Shown here piece by piece: positions 21,897 through 29,551 of a stretch of 64,000 bases of DNA. Each line of letters opens with the position of its first letter. The stretch's first letter is position 1. Origin of the DNA: Mesobacillus persicus (GTDB lineage Bacteria > Bacillota > Bacilli > Bacillales > Cytobacillaceae); assembly GCF_900109925.1 (NCBI RefSeq), contig NZ_FOBW01000003.1, positions 310,001 through 374,000 of the forward strand, written 5' to 3'. The position numbers and the translations under genes were made by a program. The notes under the pieces were generated by a model. It had not been told where the DNA came from, made no database searches, and saw nothing but the letters and a program-made list of their open reading frames with translations.

Positions 21897-22313
21897 TCAG
21901 TCTTCAAGAAGTTCCTTCAATCCATTTCTTTCTAGATTGATTTCGGCAGCTGTTCGTACTTTTAACCTTCTAATTACAGCTAACGGTGGGCACCAGCCTT
22001 GCAGAGCGTGCTGAATCATAAAGACACTCGCAATTCCGGAAAGGACCAGCCATTTTTTCCTTCCTAAAAGTCCGTATAAAGATGAAATCAAAACGATAGA
22101 GGCAAAATTCACTTCAAGGACTCGTTCCGTATCCCATTCATGATCCAATTTGTGGAGACGCGCTTGTATTTCTTCCTTACTTTTTGTTTTATAGTCGTTT
22201 AGGTTCAAATTCGTTTGTTCTTGTATGGAATCATTAATGGAATCAGCAGTGTTCCTGTTTACTTTTGTAGTGGTAGGGGGAAGAAAGGTGCTTCTAAATT
22301 GCAAAAGTATCAC
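21897..22313 (-). CDS. DUF2892 (YgaP-membrane-domain-like) protein
   Basis: A 138-residue protein. The N-terminal half is polar with a predicted coiled region (SKEEIQARLHKLDHEWDTERVLE). The C-terminal half has two hydrophobic segments and ends with GWCPPLAVIRRLKVRTAAEI, the signature of DUF2892, also found as the membrane part of YgaP-type rhodaneses. The start is GTG at 22313, with a TTG nine bases later also possible. It is divergent from the sulfurtransferase cluster, and DUF2892 proteins often accompany persulfide enzymes, so a linked role is plausible. Confidence 0.75.
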   Translation of the reverse strand: MILLQFRSTFLPPTTTKVNRNTADSINDSIQEQTNLNLNDYKTKSKEEIQARLHKLDHEWDTERVLEVNFASIVLISSLYGLLGRKKWLVLSGIASVFMIQHALQGWCPPLAVIRRLKVRTAAEINLERNGLKELLED

Positions 22314-22547
22314 TCACTTTCAAGTTGTCGGGATGATTTCTCACTATTTTTCAACTCATTTATTTTAGCATTTCCTCATTAAATGGTTTTATCAATTGAA
22401 GGAATAGGGTCAGCCTAATAATTGCTATCAGGACATCGTTTTCTGACCAAAATACTATGTATTGTTTCAATAACTGGAAGAGGTAAAAAGGCATTAATTT
22501 TTAGCGGGAAAGGATAATAAAGAAGATGAAAGGAAGGGAGGATGGTT

Positions 22548-23114
22548 ATGGACGTTAATAAAGTACTTGATGCAAAAGGGCTCGCCTGCCCAATGCCAAT
22601 TGTCAAAACAAAAAAAGAAATGACCACGCTTGAACCAGGGCAAGTCATGGAAATTCAGGCGACAGATAAGGGATCGACAGCAGACCTCAAAGCCTGGGCG
22701 CAGAGCACGGGAAACCAATACCTAGGGACCGTTGAGGATGGCGATACATTAAAGCATTATCTTCGCAAAGCGAGTGCGGAGGAAGAGAAAGAGGAAAGCA
22801 AGCATCCTCATGTCATGAACCTTGGGGATTTGCAAAACAAGATTGAGGGAAATGAAAAAATTACAATTTTAGATGTCAGAGAGCCGGCGGAATATGCCTT
22901 CGGTCACATTCCCGGGGCTATTACCATACCCCTAGGGGAACTTGAGAAAAGGTTTGAAGAACTGAATAAAGACGATGAGCTCCATATTATTTGCCGAACG
23001 GGTAGCCGAAGTGATTTGGCCGCTCAGCAACTAACAGAAAAGGGATTTAAAGATGTTAAAAATGTCGTGCCAGGAATGAAAGAATGGACAGGCGATGTGA
23101 ACCAAAAACACTAG
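22548..23114 (+). CDS. yrkF: TusA-rhodanese fusion (YrkF-like)
   Basis: A 188-residue two-domain sulfur carrier. Residues 1-75 are TusA/SirA-like with the persulfide cysteine in LDAKGLACPMPIVKTKK (C14); residues about 85-188 are a rhodanese domain with the active cysteine in IICRTGSRS. The same order is seen in B. subtilis YrkF. It should move sulfane sulfur between partners. The start is ATG at 22548, since GGGAGG is adjacent to the earlier ATG at 22542. First gene of the first of two related blocks (TusA-rhodanese, DsrE-like, rhodanese-MBL), 20 nt before the next gene. Confidence 0.9.
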   Translation: MDVNKVLDAKGLACPMPIVKTKKEMTTLEPGQVMEIQATDKGSTADLKAWAQSTGNQYLGTVEDGDTLKHYLRKASAEEEKEESKHPHVMNLGDLQNKIEGNEKITILDVREPAEYAFGHIPGAITIPLGELEKRFEELNKDDELHIICRTGSRSDLAAQQLTEKGFKDVKNVVPGMKEWTGDVNQKH

Positions 23115-23134
23115 TTCAATAAGGAGGAAATAGA

Positions 23135-23524
23135 ATGAAGGTAGCAATTATTGCAGCAAATGGTGGGATGTTTGACGCGTATAAAGTCTTTAATATTGCC
23201 ACAGCGGCGGCTGCAACAGACGCAGAAGTGGGCATCTTTTTTACATTCGAAGGATTAAATCTTATTCATAAGGAAGGGCATAAAAATTTGCCAATGCCTG
23301 CTGGTACTGAGCATTTTCAAGAGGGCTTTAAAAAAGCAAATGTCCCACCGGTTGAAGAACTCGTAAGTATGGCAACAGAAATGGGTGTGAAAATGATTGC
23401 CTGTCAAATGACGATGGATGTTATGAGTTTGGAAAAAGAACAATTTGTAGAGGGAATTGATGTTGGTGGTGCAGTTACTTTCTTAACCTTCGCTAAAGAT
23501 GCCGATGTTACCTTAACTTTCTAA
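23135..23524 (+). CDS. yrkE: DsrE/DsrF-like (YrkE-type) protein, copy 1
   Basis: A 129-residue protein of the DsrE/peroxiredoxin-like family: N-terminal VAIIAANGGMFDAYKVFNIATAAAATDAEV, then a cysteine in MIACQMTMDVM that is the likely persulfide site. B. subtilis YrkE is the closest named relative I can point to. It lies between a TusA-rhodanese and a rhodanese-MBL gene, so it is expected to exchange sulfur with them in the cytoplasm. RBS AAGGAGG. A paralogue with very similar sequence lies at 25721. Confidence 0.9.
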   Translation: MKVAIIAANGGMFDAYKVFNIATAAAATDAEVGIFFTFEGLNLIHKEGHKNLPMPAGTEHFQEGFKKANVPPVEELVSMATEMGVKMIACQMTMDVMSLEKEQFVEGIDVGGAVTFLTFAKDADVTLTF

Positions 23525-23554
23525 ATCTATCTTAAACAGCTAAGGGGTGAGAAA

Positions 23555-24691
23555 ATGGCTGAAGAGCAAGCAGTAAAAACAATTAGCGTAAAAGAGTTAA
23601 CTAGAAAAATTCTGGACCACGAAAAGGTATTTATTTTAGATGCCAGAAACACTGATGATTTCGATGACTGGAAAATTGAAGGGGAAAACGTAGAGGTCAT
23701 CAATGCCCCTTATTTTGATCTGCTTGATGGTGTCGAAAGTATTGTGGACAAGATGCCTAAAGAACAGAACATTTACGTGGTTTGTGCGAAAGGTGGCTCT
23801 TCGGAATTCGTCGCAGAACAATTGGTCGAGGCTGGTTTTCCTAATGCCTTTTCTGTTGAAGGAGGCATGAAATCATGGAGTGAACATTTAGAACCGATAA
23901 AAGTGGGCGATTTAACCGGTGGCGGTGCCATCTATCAATTTGTTCGAATTGGGAAAGGCTGCTTATCTTATTTAGTTGAATCAAATGGTTCATGTGCGCT
24001 AATTGATACCAATCGAATGCTTGAACCTTATGAGGAGTTTATAAAAGAACATCAGTTAAAGTTGACGCATACACTCGACACCCATCTCCATGCGGATCAT
24101 ATTTCTGGTGGTAGAAAACTAGCAGAAAACCATGGGGCTAAGTATTATCTTCCCCCTAAAGATGCGGATGAAGTTCAATTTGAGTACAATCATGTTCATG
24201 ACGGGGATGAATACAAGATTGGCGACAAAACCATAAAAGCTATATACTCCCCGGGGCATACAATTGGGAGTACCTCTTATATAGTAGATAATCAATATTT
24301 ACTGACAGGAGACATCCTGTTTATCGATTCCATTGGCCGTCCAGATTTGGCTGGTAAGGCAGAGGACTGGGTTGCCGATTTAAGGGAAACGCTCTATAAA
24401 CGCTATAAAGAATTAGCTGATGATTTAATTGTTCTGCCGACTCATTTTATGACCCATCATGAAATGAATGCAGATGGATCCGTTTCAGAAAAGCTTGGGG
24501 TTTTATTTAAAGAAAACCATGGGTTGAATATTGAAAGCGAAGAGGAATTTAGAAAAACCGTAAGTGAAAACCTTCCACCGCAACCGAATTCTCATCAAGA
24601 AATTCGGGAAACCAATATGGGCAAGATCACTCCAGAAGAAGAGCAACAGAGAGAAATGGAGATTGGTCCAAATCGTTGTGCGGTTAGATAG
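23555..24691 (+). CDS. yrkH: Rhodanese-MBL-fold persulfide enzyme (YrkH-like), copy 1
   Basis: A 378-residue fusion. Residues 1-115 are a rhodanese-like domain with cysteine in [11 protein letters not shown]; residues about 125-345 are a metallo-beta-lactamase domain with [10 protein letters not shown] (metal ligands), a GHTIGSTSY histidine and [18 protein letters not shown]. This MBL group includes persulfide dioxygenases (ETHE1/CstB-type), which oxidise persulfides to sulfite; CstB also carries rhodanese domains. RBS AAGGGGTGAG. It ends the first block, followed by a terminator. The tail ends with IGPNRCAVR, like copy 2. Confidence 0.9.
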
Positions 24692-24727
24692 TTAGGATGG
24701 AATGAACGTAAAAAAGAGAGACCGATT

Positions 24728-24756
24728 GGCGTGAATTCGCAATTCACGCCTTTTTT
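24728..24756 (+). terminator. Terminator ending the first sulfurtransferase block
   Basis: GGCGTGAATT / AATTCACGCC with three-base loop and six T. Confidence 0.92.
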
Positions 24757-24866
24757 GAGTATTACCCTGTTAGGTATTTTACAAACCACAAATACTATGA
24801 AATAATGGTTTTCCTTAGCTAAAACTAAATAAACGGATTCGTTTTAAAAAAAATTCATTAATACTG

Positions 24867-24895
24867 TTGACATTATACCTATAGGGGTATATTAT
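24867..24895 (+). promoter_or_regulatory. Promoter with CsoR/CstR-type operator in its spacer
   Basis: TTGACA (24867-24872), 17-bp spacer, TATTAT (24890-24895). The palindrome ATACCTATAGGGGTAT (24875-24890) fills the spacer and resembles the TACCC...GGGTA operators of the CsoR/CstR family, of which CstR senses persulfides. The repressor gene is not in this window. Confidence 0.72.
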
Positions 24896-24977
24896 TAACC
24901 TTGTCAGCACGACAATGACCAATCAACATAACCATGAAAACTTGGTTATGAAAACAATACTGAAAGGTGGAGTCAAG

Positions 24978-25340
24978 TTGGAATACGTTAATTATGTCCT
25001 CATTGCGATCATCGCTTTTGTTTTTATCAAGCGACTGATTCCTGTTAAAGGAATTAGGCATATATCAACAGGTGAGCTTAAGAATGAATTAAAGGATAAA
25101 AACAAACAGTTCATCGATGTTCGTACCCCAGGAGAGTTTAAAGGAAATCATATTCGGGGATTTAACAACCTTCCTTTACATCAATTGGCTCAGAAATCCA
25201 ACAGTCTGCAAAAGGATAAGGAAGTTGTGGTCATTTGTCAGAGTGGAATGAGAAGCCAAAAGGCATGTAGCCAATTAAAAAAACTAGGATTTACAAATAT
25301 AACGAATGTAAAAGGCGGAGTTAGCGCCTGGAGACCATAA
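24978..25340 (+). CDS. Membrane-anchored rhodanese-domain protein
   Basis: A 120-residue protein: one N-terminal membrane helix (YVNYVLIAIIAFVFIKRLIP) followed by a rhodanese domain, HISTGELKNELK through the active cysteine in VVVICQSGMRSQKA to GGVSAWRP. TTG at 24978 is preferred because AAAGGTGGAG is correctly placed and the ATG at 24915 lies only about 13 nt after the expected transcription start. Such proteins are common in Bacillus next to persulfide genes. It is the first gene of the operator-controlled second block. Confidence 0.85.
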   Translation: MEYVNYVLIAIIAFVFIKRLIPVKGIRHISTGELKNELKDKNKQFIDVRTPGEFKGNHIRGFNNLPLHQLAQKSNSLQKDKEVVVICQSGMRSQKACSQLKKLGFTNITNVKGGVSAWRP

Positions 25341-25357
25341 GGAGGCAACGAAACGAT

Positions 25358-25654
25358 ATGAAACAATTATCTGTTAAGGAAGTTGAAAATTTATTAAAAG
25401 AAAAGCAACCGATAAATATCATAGATGTAAGAGAAGTGGATGAGGTGGCAACAGGTAAAATCCCAGGAGCGATTCATATTCCGCTTGGGCTATTAGAATT
25501 CCGTATGCAAGAGTTAGATAAAGCAAAAGAATACATCATGGTGTGCCGCTCAGGTGGTAGAAGTGCTAGTGCTGCTCAATTGCTTGACTACCATGGTTAT
25601 AAGGTAATCAATATGACAGGCGGCATGATGTTGTGGGAAGGTCCTACTGAATAA
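25358..25654 (+). CDS. Single-domain rhodanese sulfurtransferase
   Basis: A 98-residue stand-alone rhodanese: VKEVENLLKEKQPINIIDVREVDEVATGKIPGAIHIPLG, with the active-site cysteine in YIMVCRSGGRSASA and the closing GGMMLWEG. RBS GGAGGCAAC. It lies 17 nt after the membrane rhodanese and is probably in the same operon. PspE/GlpE-like activity (sulfane sulfur transfer to a thiol) is expected; the partner is probably the downstream DsrE-like or TusA protein. Confidence 0.9.
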   Translation: MKQLSVKEVENLLKEKQPINIIDVREVDEVATGKIPGAIHIPLGLLEFRMQELDKAKEYIMVCRSGGRSASAAQLLDYHGYKVINMTGGMMLWEGPTE

Positions 25655-25671
25655 TTTTTTTATCACTTTCA

Positions 25672-25686
25672 ATACCCCTAGGGGTT
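25672..25686 (+). promoter_or_regulatory. CsoR/CstR-type operator upstream of second yrkE
   Basis: ATACCCCTAGGGGTT contains the perfect palindrome ACCCCTAGGGGT (25674-25685). It abuts a -10-like TAAAAT (25686-25691). The -35 is weak. Confidence 0.65.
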
Positions 25687-25720
25687 AAAATATAAACAAC
25701 GTAAAATAGGAGGAAGAAAA

Positions 25721-26116
25721 ATGAGTAATAGAGTCGCGATTATTGCTAGTAATGGTGGGTTATTTGATGCTTATAAGGTGTTTAATATCGCAACGGCTGC
25801 AGCTGCAACCGATCAAGAGGTAGCTATTTTCTTCACATTTGAAGGATTAAACCTCATTCATAAAGAAGCGAACCAACAGCTTCCAATGCCTGAAGGCAAA
25901 GAACATTTTGCTGAAGGATTTGCTAAAGCCAATGTTCCTGGTATTCCGGAAATGGTTGAAATGGCTCAAGATCTAGGTGTAAAACTAATTGGTTGCCAAA
26001 TGACAATGGATGTTATGGGATTAGAAAAAGAAGCATTTGTTGATGGCATTGAAGTCGGAGGAGCAGTAACCTTCTTAGAGTTTGCACAAGATGCAAATGT
26101 AACTCTCACATTCTAA
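25721..26116 (+). CDS. yrkE: DsrE/DsrF-like (YrkE-type) protein, copy 2
   Basis: A 131-residue paralogue of the protein at 23135, with the same VAIIASNGGLFDAYKVFNIATAAAATD start and the cysteine in LIGCQMTMDVMGLEKEAFVDGI. The likely function is persulfide carriage in the cytoplasm. RBS AGGAGGAAG, with a perfect CsoR/CstR-type palindrome upstream, absent before copy 1. Duplication with different control suggests one constitutive and one inducible set (inference). Confidence 0.9.
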   Translation: MSNRVAIIASNGGLFDAYKVFNIATAAAATDQEVAIFFTFEGLNLIHKEANQQLPMPEGKEHFAEGFAKANVPGIPEMVEMAQDLGVKLIGCQMTMDVMGLEKEAFVDGIEVGGAVTFLEFAQDANVTLTF

Positions 26117-26123
26117 ATAAGTG

Positions 26124-26200
26124 ATTGTTTTCTTAAAGTTGTTGTTAAAATCTTAAAGCCGATTTTAACGTGTAAAAAGCTATTTTGTAAGAATCATATT
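26124..26200 (+). repeat. About 75-bp dispersed repeat, copy A
   Basis: Related to copies at 40815-40892 (same strand) and 35435-35512 (opposite strand). Shared order: TTGTTGTTAAAATC, short spacer, GATTTTAACGTGTAAAAAGCT. The GTTAAAATC / GATTTTAAC arms form a hairpin. Confidence 0.65.
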
Positions 26201-26210
26201 AAGTTTGCAT

Positions 26211-26256
26211 GCTCTTTTCGAATAGTGTTAAAAGTCCGTTTATACGCGAAAAGAGC
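26211..26256 (+). other. Hairpin upstream of second yrkH
   Basis: GCTCTTTTCG (26211-26220) pairs with CGAAAAGAGC (26247-26256). Another partial operator-like sequence, ATACCCTAGGAGGTAA (26279-26294), overlaps the RBS of the next gene; it may be chance. Confidence 0.45.
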
Positions 26257-26299
26257 CTAAAAAATTTTACATTAAAATATACCCTAGGAGGTAAGATAG

Positions 26300-27427
26300 A
26301 TGACAGTAAAAGCAATGAATTCAAAAGAAGTAACAGCTAAGGTGTTTAACAAAGAAACTATGTTTATTCTAGATGTTCGTAACGAAACGGATTTTCAGGA
26401 TTGGAAAATTGAAGGAGAAAACTTTCAATACTTCAACATTCCTTACTTTGAGTTACTAGATGGTGTGGAAGAAATCATGGATAAAATTCCAGCTGATATG
26501 GATGTTTTGGTTGTCTGTGCAAAAGAAGGGTCTTCTGTGATGGTTGCGGAAATGCTTTCTGAGGAAGGTCGCGATGTGGCTTACCTTGAAGGTGGTATGA
26601 AAACTTGGAGTGAACATTTAGAGCCAGTTAAGGTTGGCGATTTAAAAGATGGCGGAGAGCTTTACCAGTTTGTACGGATTGGAAAAGGGTGTCTATCTTA
26701 CATGGTTGTATCAAATGGCGAGGCAGCCATCATTGACTCTACTCGTATGACGGATATCTACCTTGATTTTGCAAAGAATATGAATGTTAACATCACTCAT
26801 GTTTTTGATACTCATTTACACGCTGATCATATTTCTGGTGGTCGTGTGATTGCAGAGCAAACAGGTGCAACTTACTGGTTACCACCGAAGGATGCAACAG
26901 AAGTTGTATTTGAATACCAGCCACTTGAGGGTGGGAATGATGTGAAGATTGGTGAAACGAACATCAATATTCACTCTCTATACTCACCAGGACACACAAT
27001 CGGGTCAACGTCCTTTGTAATTGATGAAAAGTTCCTTCTATCTGGTGATATCTTGTTTATCGATTCAATCGGAAGACCTGACCTTGCTGGTTTAGCAGAA
27101 GACTGGGTTGGCGATTTAAGAGAAACGCTTTACAAGCGTTACCGTGAGTTATCAGATGAACTAGTGGTACTTCCAGCCCACTTTATGATTATCGATGAGT
27201 TAAATGAAGATGGAAGTGTCTCTGAAAAGCTAAGTACATTGTTTGCTAAAAACCATGGCTTGAACATTGAAGACGAAAACGAGTTCAGAAGTTTAGTGAC
27301 GGAAAATCTGCCACCGCAACCAAATGCATACCAGGAAATTCGTGAAACGAATATGGGTAAAATTACCCCAGATGCAGAGCAGCAACGTGAAATGGAAATC
27401 GGACCAAATCGCTGTGCGGTACGTTAA
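26300..27427 (+). CDS. yrkH: Rhodanese-MBL-fold persulfide enzyme (YrkH-like), copy 2
   Basis: A 375-residue paralogue of the gene at 23555: N-terminal rhodanese-like domain ([16 protein letters not shown]) and C-terminal MBL domain with [40 protein letters not shown] and PAHFMI. It ends with the same [10 protein letters not shown]...IGPNRCAVR tail. A persulfide dioxygenase-type or related thiosulfate-forming reaction is likely. RBS AGGAGGT overlaps an operator-like sequence. It is followed 37 nt later by a stand-alone TusA, giving the yrkH-yrkI-yrkJ order of B. subtilis. Confidence 0.9.
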
Positions 27428-27464
27428 ATCATAAATTATTTTTTACAACAGGGGGATGTTTTGA

Positions 27465-27692
27465 ATGGAATCAACAAAAGTATTAGATGCAAAAGGGCTT
27501 GCATGCCCAATGCCAATCGTAAAAACAAAAAAGGCAATGAATGAGCTTGAAGCAGGTCAAGTACTAGAAATTCACGCGACGGATAAGGGTGCGAAGAATG
27601 ACCTACAAGCTTGGGCAAAATCTGGCGGTCATGAACTTGTTAAACATGAAGATGAAGGCGATGTTCTGAAATTCTGGATTAAAAAGGGGTAA
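27465..27692 (+). CDS. yrkI: TusA-family sulfur carrier (YrkI-like)
   Basis: A 75-residue TusA/SirA-like protein with the persulfide cysteine in LDAKGLACPMPIVKTKK (C13), nearly identical in that region to the TusA half of the fusion at 22548, and a C-terminal DVLKFWIKKG. It should accept sulfur from rhodanese or DsrE-like partners. RBS GGGGGA. A short terminator separates it from the transporter gene, which may lower expression of the latter. Confidence 0.92.
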   Translation: MESTKVLDAKGLACPMPIVKTKKAMNELEAGQVLEIHATDKGAKNDLQAWAKSGGHELVKHEDEGDVLKFWIKKG

Positions 27693-27698
27693 ATCATA

Positions 27699-27722
27699 GG
27701 GAACCAATTTGGTTCCCTTTTT
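27699..27722 (+). terminator. Intra-cluster terminator
   Basis: GGGAACCAA / TTGGTTCCC stem followed by five T, between yrkI-like and the TauE/SafE gene. Confidence 0.8.
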
Positions 27723-27739
27723 AAAAGGGGGGAAACTTG

Positions 27740-28516
27740 ATGGACTTTGGCTTTATACTTACAATCTTTTTAATTGGTTTTATCGGTTCATTTATATCCG
27801 GGATGCTGGGTATAGGTGGTTCGATTATTAAATATCCGATGTTATTATATATTCCACCGATGCTAGGTTTCGCTGCATTCACTGCCCATGAAGTTTCGGG
27901 AATTAGTGCCGTGCAAGTGTTTTTCGCGACCATTGGTGGGGTTTGGGCTTACCGTAAGGGCGGCTATTTAAATAAATCGTTAATTACTTATATGGGTGCT
28001 AGTATTTTAATTGGTAGTTTTATTGGTGGGTACGGTTCTAAGCTGATGTCGGAAGCTGGAATCAACTTAATCTATGGAATCTTGGCACTAATTGCTGCCG
28101 TGATGATGTTTATTCCTAAGAAAGGCATTGACGATATTCCACTTGACCAAGTAACGTTTAATAAATGGATTGCGGCTACGCTATCTTTAATTGTCGGAGT
28201 CGGTGCCGGGATTGTTGGGGCAGCTGGGGCGTTCTTACTCGTTCCGATTATGCTTGTTGTCTTAAAAATCCCAACGAGGATGACGATTGCCTCCTCATTG
28301 GCAATTACCTTGATTTCTTCCATTGGAGCAACGGTCGGAAAAGTCACGACAGGACAAGTGGATTGGGGTCCTGCTGCCGTGATGGTTATTGCTAGTCTAA
28401 TTGCTTCTCCAATCGGAGCGATACTCGGGAAGAAAGTGAATACGAAAGTGCTCCAAATTATTTTGGCCGTGTTGATTTTGGCTACAGCAATTAACATCTG
28501 GATGGATATTTTATAA
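27740..28516 (+). CDS. yrkJ: TauE/SafE family anion exporter (YrkJ-like)
   Basis: A 258-residue membrane protein with about eight helices. The repeats show the family motifs [24 protein letters not shown] and [22 protein letters not shown]. TauE/SafE proteins export sulfite, sulfonates or similar anions; next to persulfide-oxidising enzymes, sulfite or thiosulfate efflux is the natural guess. ATG at 27740 is preferred over TTG 27737, with AAAAGGGGGG upstream. The micro-gene at 28536 follows 19 nt after its stop and shares its terminator. Confidence 0.92.
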
Positions 28517-28535
28517 TAAAGGTCAGGTGATCTCG

Positions 28536-28694
28536 TTGGAAAAGGAAAAGAGAAATGATTGTGGACCTACTGGTTCCTGAGGAATCAATTCTAAGCCAAT
28601 CCCAGGTCGTCGTAAAAGCGTTCCGCCCGTTTGACCTGGTGTTTGGGTGTGGCTCCTGGTAGGAGCCGGTATGTTGATATCGAATTGGTTATAA
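28536..28694 (+). CDS. Candidate 52-residue membrane micro-selenoprotein (two in-frame TGA codons)
   Basis: A frame starting at TTG 28536, with AGGTGATC just upstream matching the ribosomal anti-SD, runs to TAA 28692-28694. It reads LEKEKRNDCGPTGS, TGA (28578-28580), GINSKPIPGRRKSVPPV, TGA (28632-28634), then PGVWVWLLVGAGMLISNWL, a plausible C-terminal membrane helix. If both TGA are selenocysteine it is a 52-residue protein with C9, U15 and U33. The second TGA is followed by a perfect seven-pair hairpin with loop GGT, 23 nt away. The first has only weak structure of its own, so it is less certain. It lies 19 nt after the TauE/SafE gene, before the shared terminator at 28700. The family is not recognised. 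Without Sec decoding only a 14-residue peptide is made. Confidence 0.55.
28651..28667 (+). promoter_or_regulatory. Candidate bacterial SECIS element (micro-gene)
   Basis: GGCTCCT (28651-28657) pairs perfectly with AGGAGCC (28661-28667), loop GGT. The spacing from TGA 28632-28634 to the loop is 23 nt, inside the bSECIS range. The second TGA also forms part of another stem, CCAGGTC (28602-28608) with GACCTGG (28633-28639). Confidence 0.6.
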
Positions 28695-28699
28695 AAAAG

Positions 28700-28724
28700 G
28701 AGGCTGATTACAGTCTCTTTTTTT
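28700..28724 (+). terminator. Terminator ending the sulfur-relay cluster
   Basis: GAGGCTG / CAGTCTC (one G-U pair), ATTA loop, seven T. It places the micro-gene inside the transcript. Confidence 0.85.
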
Positions 28725-28746
28725 GTACTTTTTTTGAAAGTGTAAC

Positions 28747-29169
28747 TTACTTAATACCTGTAGAGTCAATTTCAATAATGGTCGGTTCGTATCTTGAGAT
28801 GACATCCACTTTGTGATCAATACAAGCTAAAGAGTAATGAGTTAATTTTTCTTTTGATTCCTTATGGATACGATCTAAGTAATTAGATTGCTGATAGATT
28901 CGAAAGGCTTCACCCTGGAAGGTCTCCGTATTGTTCCAAGTTGTAAAATCGTCATAGATGACCGAATAGGTAACATAATTTTTAAAGTCGATTTGTAAGG
29001 TTTTAACTTTGCTATCTGGGTGGGGGAAAATGAGTAAGTCAGTTGGATTCTCGCTTTTATTAACGATGATCCTCAGTTTTACTTCATTTGTTCTTGGTTC
29101 TAAGATCTGCTCAAATGAAATATGGTCCCCCGTTTCTTTGGTTAACTCCTCGAAAGTCATGTTCGTCAC
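28747..29169 (-). CDS. Hypothetical protein
   Basis: A 140-residue soluble, mixed alpha/beta-looking protein with no signal peptide or membrane segment. It contains KLRIIVNKSENPTDLLIFPHPDS and YVTYSVIYDDFTTWNN, and two cysteine-poor halves. I do not recognise the family. ATG at 29169 with GAGGTGACGAAC upstream supports translation. It converges on the sulfur-relay cluster and lies just downstream of the zinc-finger gene at 29197 on the same strand (27-nt gap), so they may be co-transcribed. Confidence 0.6.
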   Translation of the reverse strand: MTNMTFEELTKETGDHISFEQILEPRTNEVKLRIIVNKSENPTDLLIFPHPDSKVKTLQIDFKNYVTYSVIYDDFTTWNNTETFQGEAFRIYQQSNYLDRIHKESKEKLTHYSLACIDHKVDVISRYEPTIIEIDSTGIK

Positions 29170-29196
29170 CTCAAATGTACCTCACAGATGGAATGG

Positions 29197-29406
29197 TCAA
29201 GCAATAAACCGGCATTTAGGAAAGCTACTACAGCCTTTGAACTTGCCCTTTTTTCCTGTTCTTACAACCAATTGACCACCACACCGAGGGCAAATATTGT
29301 TCAATACCTTTTGATTTCGTGTGTTTTTATCAGTTTTGAGATCTTCTACATGCTGTTTACTTTGCTCTTTTTTCGCTTTGCGGTCTTTTAAAATAAATCG
29401 AGACAA
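29197..29406 (-). CDS. Small topoisomerase-type C4 zinc-finger protein
   Basis: A 69-residue basic protein. The C-terminal half is a C4 zinc finger of topoisomerase I type, CPRCGGQLVVRTGKKGKFKG followed by CSSFPKC, which binds single-stranded DNA in larger enzymes. The N-terminal half is lysine-rich and probably disordered. The start is uncertain: TTG at 29406 has no clear RBS. It may be a stand-alone nucleic-acid-binding peptide or a leftover of a larger protein. Confidence 0.6.
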   Translation of the reverse strand: MSRFILKDRKAKKEQSKQHVEDLKTDKNTRNQKVLNNICPRCGGQLVVRTGKKGKFKGCSSFPKCRFIA

Positions 29407-29551
29407 TAAATGATTTATTTTTTGTCTTTCCCAATATAATAGTAGAATACCATACTTAAGTCCTATATTAGGTTAATATATTCTATTATTATCCAATTTG
29501 TTTGTGGTAGTCTTATACATATAAAAATTCGGTTGAAAGGGAGAGATTTCT

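Follow-up and report, generated by a model that had tools for sequence, protein, structure and literature searches.

The question raised by this locus is whether a reading frame of 52 codons, interrupted twice by TGA, is a gene and, if so, how a bacterium could read both codons as amino acids. The frame lies in the window, by which we mean the whole stretch of 64,000 nucleotides of Mesobacillus persicus analysed here (contig NZ_FOBW01000003.1, positions 310,001 to 374,000). A first-pass annotation of the letters had described a TTG start preceded by a Shine-Dalgarno sequence, two in-frame TGA codons and a TAA, and took the product for a membrane-anchored mini-selenoprotein with one Cys and up to two selenocysteines (Sec). 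All of these signals are present, and the features of the gene are the following.

28536-28694, + strand: putative two-Sec mini-selenoprotein gene, 52 codons plus TAA (homologues and selection)
28525-28530, + strand: Shine-Dalgarno-like AGGTGA, 5 nt 5' of the TTG start (sequence, and upstream sites of 29 relatives)
28536, + strand: TTG start codon (read from sequence)
28560-28562, + strand: Cys9 codon (alignment of relatives)
28578-28580, + strand: TGA1, codon 15, putative Sec15 (kept in homologues)
28632-28634, + strand: TGA2, codon 33, putative Sec33 (kept in homologues; Cys in locus L064)
28635-28691, + strand: C-terminal hydrophobic segment, residues 34-52, predicted single membrane anchor (hydropathy, predicted helix)
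28692-28694, + strand: TAA stop (read from sequence)
28700-28724, + strand: terminator-like GAGGCTG-ATTA-CAGTCTC followed by a T run (read from sequence)

With TTG taken as Met, the translation is MEKEKRNDCGPTGSUGINSKPIPGRRKSVPPVUPGVWVWLLVGAGMLISNWL. Relatives of this protein, with U read as C, occur in 75 of the 193 genomes of the family at E<0.01 (a hand count that includes the window genome); among these 75 matches the first TGA lies just beyond the aligned part in G024, and those of G182 and G059 also contain a TAA. With a profile built from 29 family relatives, 51 of the 397 genomes of the order were matched at E<1e-5, and in 49 of these the matched stretch contains at least two TGA codons; this count omits matches with E above 1e-5, such as that of G319 (L156), a member with SelB, and the order sample shares some genomes with the family sample. 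At class level 14 of 398 genomes matched (E<=0.01), and the members recognised beyond three known family genomes and G194 were G592, G682, G651 and a form with Ser in G751, while at phylum level three of 398 matched, one of which, G1269, was new and lies outside the class. A TGA-specific DNA pattern led to 68 named contigs, many of them from Neobacillus, Mesobacillus and Cytobacillus; loci found by this pattern were selected by a TGA at site 2 and by design cannot reveal Cys there, and those from the family, order and class searches were not selected in that way. Before the class and phylum searches 96 distinct matched DNA stretches had been collected, of which 94 remain after a motif filter and de-duplication. 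Searching for related loci by Cys codons yielded none, and no phage match was found. A group of weak matches (L144-L147, L149-L153, L172 and L174-L178) was read by eye and judged to consist of non-members, including L147 and L152, whose E of about 2e-5 refers to that small set. Seven of these weak, unrelated-looking matches (L144, L145, L151, L153, L172, L174 and L177, from seven genomes) have the stretch CPGVCPGVWIH in common.

Both TGA codons are retained across the family. TGA1, which was looked for as a TGA, is present in 93 of 94 genes, the exception being the L022/L158 type, which a TAA severs from site 1. The second site is TGA in 93 of 94 genes and TGT in one, L064, so that Cys replaces Sec there in a single gene. 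The first-pass annotation had suggested looking for homologues with Cys at positions 15 and 33; such a homologue exists for position 33 (L064), but none was seen for position 15 among the relatives, in which site 1 was sought as TGA. Cys9, Sec15, Sec33-Pro34, Trp39, Leu40, Leu41 and Gly43 are invariant in the 29 aligned sequences, and a Cys stands at most eight residues before Sec15 in 89 of 93 genes. The two UGAs are separated by 14 to 22 codons, depending on the gene. In a set of 204 pairs with 75-97% identity, which are related and hence non-independent and in which RNA constraint acts on the same stretch, dN/dS is 0.28 before TGA1, 0.19 between the TGAs and 0.12 after TGA2. Purifying selection acts on all three parts of the protein.

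A few copies are broken. L022/L110/L158 carries a TAA between the two sites in a genome that also has an unbroken copy, L157, and L161, which cannot pass the motif filter, has a TAG replacing the conserved Trp. In L171 (G751) Ser replaces the second Sec and no first site is recognisable, with the hairpin that follows TGA2 (P2, described below) retained; judged by its sequence, this gene looks recently decayed. Broken copies, with TAA in L022/L158 and TAG in L161, might be expected of a chance open frame or a decayed gene within non-coding DNA, and the plasmid records, whose gene table is incomplete, show no gene over the frame. This reading is nevertheless exceedingly improbable in view of the conservation across genomes of the family and order, the frozen P2 codons and the purifying selection; moreover, L199, a distant relative outside the class, has within a stretch of 70% GC the same P2 core as the window. 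In the comparison between species the frame and the Cys and Sec sites persist, and the region does not vary as non-coding DNA would, the two outcomes on which the first-pass proposal had been staked. The segment 28536-28694 represents a genuine unannotated gene family of Bacillus-like bacteria, not a chance frame.

Carriers of the gene also tend to carry the machinery for reading UGA as Sec. The window genome has a tRNA-Sec (63.5 bits) and a SelB over the cut-off, and its formate dehydrogenase, FdhA, contains one in-frame TGA followed by a hairpin with the loop GGTCT. A second, partial formate dehydrogenase-like match in the same genome (G000:C33:114955-115707) also has one in-frame TGA and lies below the family cut-off. 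SelB was found in 48 of 51 order-level carriers against 131 of 346 non-carriers (Fisher 2.4e-15, in a test that ignores kinship), and at family level the gene is present in 73 of 170 genomes with SelB against two of 23 without (p 8e-4). One carrier, G389, has no SelB over the cut-off but does have tRNA-Sec. Four others (G171, G175, G452 and G523) have neither, and these are the main puzzle for the Sec reading. Their genes, L142 and L143 (G171 and G175), L051 (G452) and L052 (G523), are all one closely related variant, and the gene DNA of G171 and G175 is identical to the copy on plasmid pBO1 (L105). Transfer into hosts that lack the Sec machinery may explain the four exceptions, and the gene may go undecoded there; the variant may be a mobile persulfide island which has spread further than the machinery needed to decode it.

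The same evidence bears on the possibility that the UGAs are true stops and that what is conserved is an RNA, either a leader peptide or a selenium-responsive regulatory element. The gene stands last in its cluster, with a terminator-like site close behind it, and the RNA has structure, the folding of 28575-28700 beating 200 of 200 dinucleotide shuffles (z -3.8). Neither explanation of this kind would call for purifying selection on the protein after each TGA, a conserved hydrophobic helix, a Cys replacement at site 2 or an association with SelB, and we regard it as very improbable. The retained TGAs, the Cys at site 2, the SelB link, the selection and the helix support the membrane-anchored mini-selenoprotein first proposed, and the family very probably encodes a protein with two Sec. 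The cell's SelB and tRNA-Sec would then decode both UGAs.

For the second UGA, a candidate signal is readily seen.

28650-28668, + strand: P2, hairpin resembling a SECIS (28651-28657 paired with 28661-28667; GGT as apical loop at 28658-28660)

The hairpin described in the first pass, with seven pairs and the loop GGT 23 nt after the second TGA, does exist, but it is the loop and not the stem that begins after 23 nt. The bacterial SECIS (bSECIS) model, as given in section 5 of PMC13188914, specifies a loop of 3-9 nt, a stem of 4-16 bp, a G in the first two loop positions, a distance of 16-37 nt from the UGA and a minimum free energy of at most -7.5. With 7 bp, the loop GGT at 23 nt from TGA2 and -10.7 kcal/mol, the window hairpin (28651-28667) agrees with every constraint stated there for UGA2; some relatives have energies above -7.5 kcal/mol, and thus weaker hairpins (for instance L064, -6.7, and L103, -4.0). 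Across the family the best hairpin has its loop at +23 from TGA2 in 93 of 94 genes, each of the seven inner pairs is standard in 92-94 of the 94, and the mean energy is -9.5 kcal/mol against -2.1 in synonymous controls. An early shuffle control that drew codons from the family itself understates P2 and was set aside. The loops are GGT (48), GGC (40), GGG (5) and AGC (1), and in two genes a C-G pair has become G-C by a double change. The codons of the W-L-L-[VAG]-G stretch are nearly frozen, with CTC in 85 of 89 genes (background 0.08), CTG in 92 of 93 (0.13) and GGA in 92 of 94 (0.35), unlike those for the Leu at codon +14 after TGA2, where five different codons are used.

The first UGA is the harder case. 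A local hairpin within the bSECIS limits of PMC13188914 is absent after TGA1 in 57 of 93 genes, and none is common to the family. The first-pass annotation had asked whether conserved structure follows the first TGA; the family has no common local element there, and the structure predicted in its place is a sequence-variable bracketing helix (P1) that the first pass had not seen.

28593-28607, + strand: 5' arm of bracketing helix P1 (family-wide pairing tests)
28635-28649, + strand: 3' arm of helix P1, ending against P2 (pairing tests)

P1 joins a segment about 14 nt downstream of TGA1 to the one that directly follows TGA2, and its sequence differs by clade (AAACCCC with GGGGTTT, for example, or CGTAC with GTACG). 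With P2 excluded, the mean folding z is -0.54 for the stretch between the TGAs, -1.59 once 15 nt after TGA2 are added and -2.02 for the core stretch starting at the fourth codon after TGA1; control stretches give -0.15 upstream and +0.10 downstream. The predicted fold places at least four pairs enclosing or overlapping TGA2 in 93 of 93 genes, a count without a control of its own. Exchanging arms between genes weakens the pairing, from -16.8 to -13.4 over the whole stretch in 93 genes and from -12.3 to -7.9 kcal/mol (p 1.1e-8) in 42 representatives of less than 70% identity; this last test used 17 nt after TGA2, two of them belonging to P2, and the other arm tests used 15. Only in 44% of genes does the gene's own 3' arm rank among the best 5%, and it brings no advantage in six of the 42 representatives. 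Dinucleotide shuffles of the 5' arm give z -1.89, and 41% of genes reach p<=0.05. Segments from other parts of the gene make poor partners for the 3' arm (-3.95 and -3.78). P1 reaches -10 kcal/mol or lower in 72 of 93 genes; the corresponding share is 15.4% for synonymous randomisations and 21.6% for swaps. Outside the sample it is clear in L168 (rank 0 of 76) and moderate in L169 (20 of 76) and L199 (15 of 76). RNAalifold applied to groups of equal spacing did not find P1 in most groups, and column-wise pairing is weak (0.57 against 0.48 in permutations), both because the helix has no fixed register and slips.

Formation of P1 would bring the first UGA to a distance from P2 close to that of the second. 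Along the sequence, TGA1 and P2 are 60-81 nt apart; once P1 had formed, the median separation would fall to 15 nt (quartiles 13 and 18, range 9-27), or to 14 in the window, and TGA2 lies 15 nt from P2. Shuffled arms give a median effective distance of 17 with a wider spread, the segments searched limiting the possible values, and the match of distances is therefore suggestive only.

We propose the following mechanism. P2, the sole classical SECIS hairpin seen, stands 15 nt after UGA2. For UGA1, P1 would loop out most of the spacer, including UGA2 itself, so that P2 would be brought to about 15 nt from UGA1; after insertion of Sec15 the ribosome would melt P1, and the same P2 would then serve UGA2. 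Judging from the structure, we infer with moderate confidence that one SECIS, P2, is shared by both UGAs. Such sharing would account for the lack of a common second SECIS, for a spacer free to vary between 14 and 22 codons and for the retention of P2 by L064. This last is one case, and the Ser form L171 keeps P2 too; retention may therefore reflect recency only.

Alternatively, the two-Sec protein could be made with P1, or a lineage-specific hairpin in the spacer, acting as an unusual SECIS for UGA1 and with P2 serving UGA2 only. P1 starts mostly 13-15 nt after TGA1, in some genes (L020, for example) a local hairpin does place its loop at about +23 to +25 from TGA1, and some bSECIS elements are stated in PMC13188914 to deviate from the consensus. 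Besides lacking a common hairpin within the limits given above, however, the family has a P1-closed loop that is variable and contains UGA2, and P1 ends near P2, which makes the effective distance resemble that of UGA2. We consider this alternative possible but doubtful. The best explanation of the locus as a whole is likely to be a two-Sec membrane protein, with P2 shared, that works as a thiol/selenol relay.

The product would be a single-pass membrane protein of about 52 residues with one Cys and two Sec, its N-terminal part having the Cys shortly ahead of Sec-Gly and a P-[PI]-[IV]-Sec-P motif standing at the membrane border. The C-terminal hydrophobic helix proposed in the first pass recurs in the AlphaFold model, which has one confident helix (residues 34-51), an N-terminal part of low confidence and a mean pLDDT of 69.9. 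Across the two-Sec family the N-terminal part is basic on average. Under the positive-inside rule a basic segment lies at the cytoplasmic face, which suggests that the Cys and Sec residues are at that face.

Its chemistry may be read from the genes around it, which in the window are as follows.

22542-27692, + strand: persulfide/sulfurtransferase cluster (Pfam: TusA-rhodanese, DsrE, MBL-rhodanese, two rhodanese genes, DsrE, MBL-rhodanese, TusA)
27737-28516, + strand: TauE/SafE exporter gene, directly upstream (Pfam PF01925)

BLAST comparison with the genes of the window places a TusA, rhodanese, DsrE, metallo-beta-lactamase/rhodanese (MBL-rhodanese) or TauE gene near 63 of 96 loci, in flanks of up to 4.5 kb on each side and less at short loci; a persulfide gene was found in none of 20 control regions of 9 kb each, taken at set points of carrier contigs. 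In the remaining 33 of 96 loci the examined flank holds no persulfide gene. Counting also six redox-type clusters (the control comparison covers the persulfide genes only), 80 of 96 loci have a neighbour of one kind or the other. For several of the neighbour clusters one member each was scanned, which gave glutaredoxin, a pyridine nucleotide-disulfide oxidoreductase-like protein, DsbD_TM (CcdA type), OsmC, a metal-sensitive-type repressor, DUF302 and one without a match. On pBO1 the gene sits between a rhodanese gene and a group of hypothetical, CcdA and redoxin genes, and it is absent from the listed annotation, which is stated to be incomplete. A recurring hydrophobic protein (cluster c1, e.g. 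L130_169_781) is encoded near the gene at 22 loci, the 203-residue example having no Pfam match.

Persulfide and thiol-redox genes predominate around the gene, so that its likeliest role is that of a thiol/selenol relay tethered to the membrane, and on this gene context we lean slightly towards a tethered persulfide/thiol relay. The protein would pass on persulfides or disulfides on behalf of the TusA, rhodanese, DsrE, MBL-rhodanese and TauE proteins encoded nearby and of associated redox proteins. The first pass had spoken of persulfide or selenide chemistry: the persulfide half is matched by the setting (63 of 96 against 0 of 20), and on the selenide half the evidence is neutral apart from a selD-like gene, of which one member was scanned, lying shortly upstream on the same strand in four of 96 loci (L085, L115, L119 and L136). 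Two Sec within 52 residues, together with that selD-like gene, could point away from a sulfur/redox relay and towards selenium trafficking or sensing. With persulfide genes near 63 loci, and these or redox-type clusters near 80, we think this unlikely.

Set beside known systems, the family resembles several and coincides with none. Animal selenoproteins K and S are likewise short, with one membrane helix and the Sec outside it, a likeness in general description; they differ in having a eukaryotic SECIS and one Sec each. Searches of Pfam-A (E up to 0.001) and NCBIfam (E up to 10) with the window protein, U read as C, gave no match, nor did Rfam over 22000-29500 of the window at E up to 1. The table of 119 prokaryotic selenoprotein families and subfamilies in PMC13188914, compared by eye, lists no corresponding name or motif, and searches of the open-licence literature, at the level of titles and abstract openings, turned up no report of this family or of one bacterial SECIS serving two UGAs. 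Bacterial selenoproteins of the FdhA type share with this one the UGA, SelB, tRNA-Sec and a hairpin with a G-rich loop 16-37 nt downstream; here, in contrast, there are two UGAs 14-22 codons apart, one common SECIS-like hairpin and a sequence-variable helix that brackets UGA2. Double selenoproteins with two Sec are catalogued in Table 1 of PMC13188914, among them MbdU, the UXPK-star fusion, TsoB and selenobacteriocin (motif SGUG), the last of which the first site here (GSUG) faintly recalls; no motif listed there joins both of our sites, and the table gives no lengths. In animal selenoprotein P the UGAs also outnumber the SECIS elements but, according to PMC5133445, these lie in the 3' UTR, whereas the hairpin considered here is part of the coding sequence and would require a helix to loop the RNA.

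We are inclined, by a small measure, to see in this locus both a single SECIS that serves two UGAs in turn via a looping helix and an undescribed membrane-anchored double-selenol protein of persulfide metabolism. The family adds to the known selenoproteins one that is common in Bacillaceae and escapes gene finders, to which both Sec codons appear as stops. It points to a possible bacterial route from one SECIS to two UGAs, with a bearing on how SelB and the ribosome gauge SECIS distance, and if the hairpin is indeed shared, the genetic code would be read here in a new way. It also links selenium use with persulfide handling, and provides a compact test system in environmental bacteria.

Some smaller features of the sequences may be recorded. 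Among the 86 genes in which Ile precedes TGA2, 84 use ATA for it (background 0.18), and in 88 of 93 genes TGA1 is followed by GGN, which encodes Gly; P2 explains neither preference. At L031/L101 two divergent copies of the gene lie about 270 nt apart, one of them without a Cys near the first Sec.
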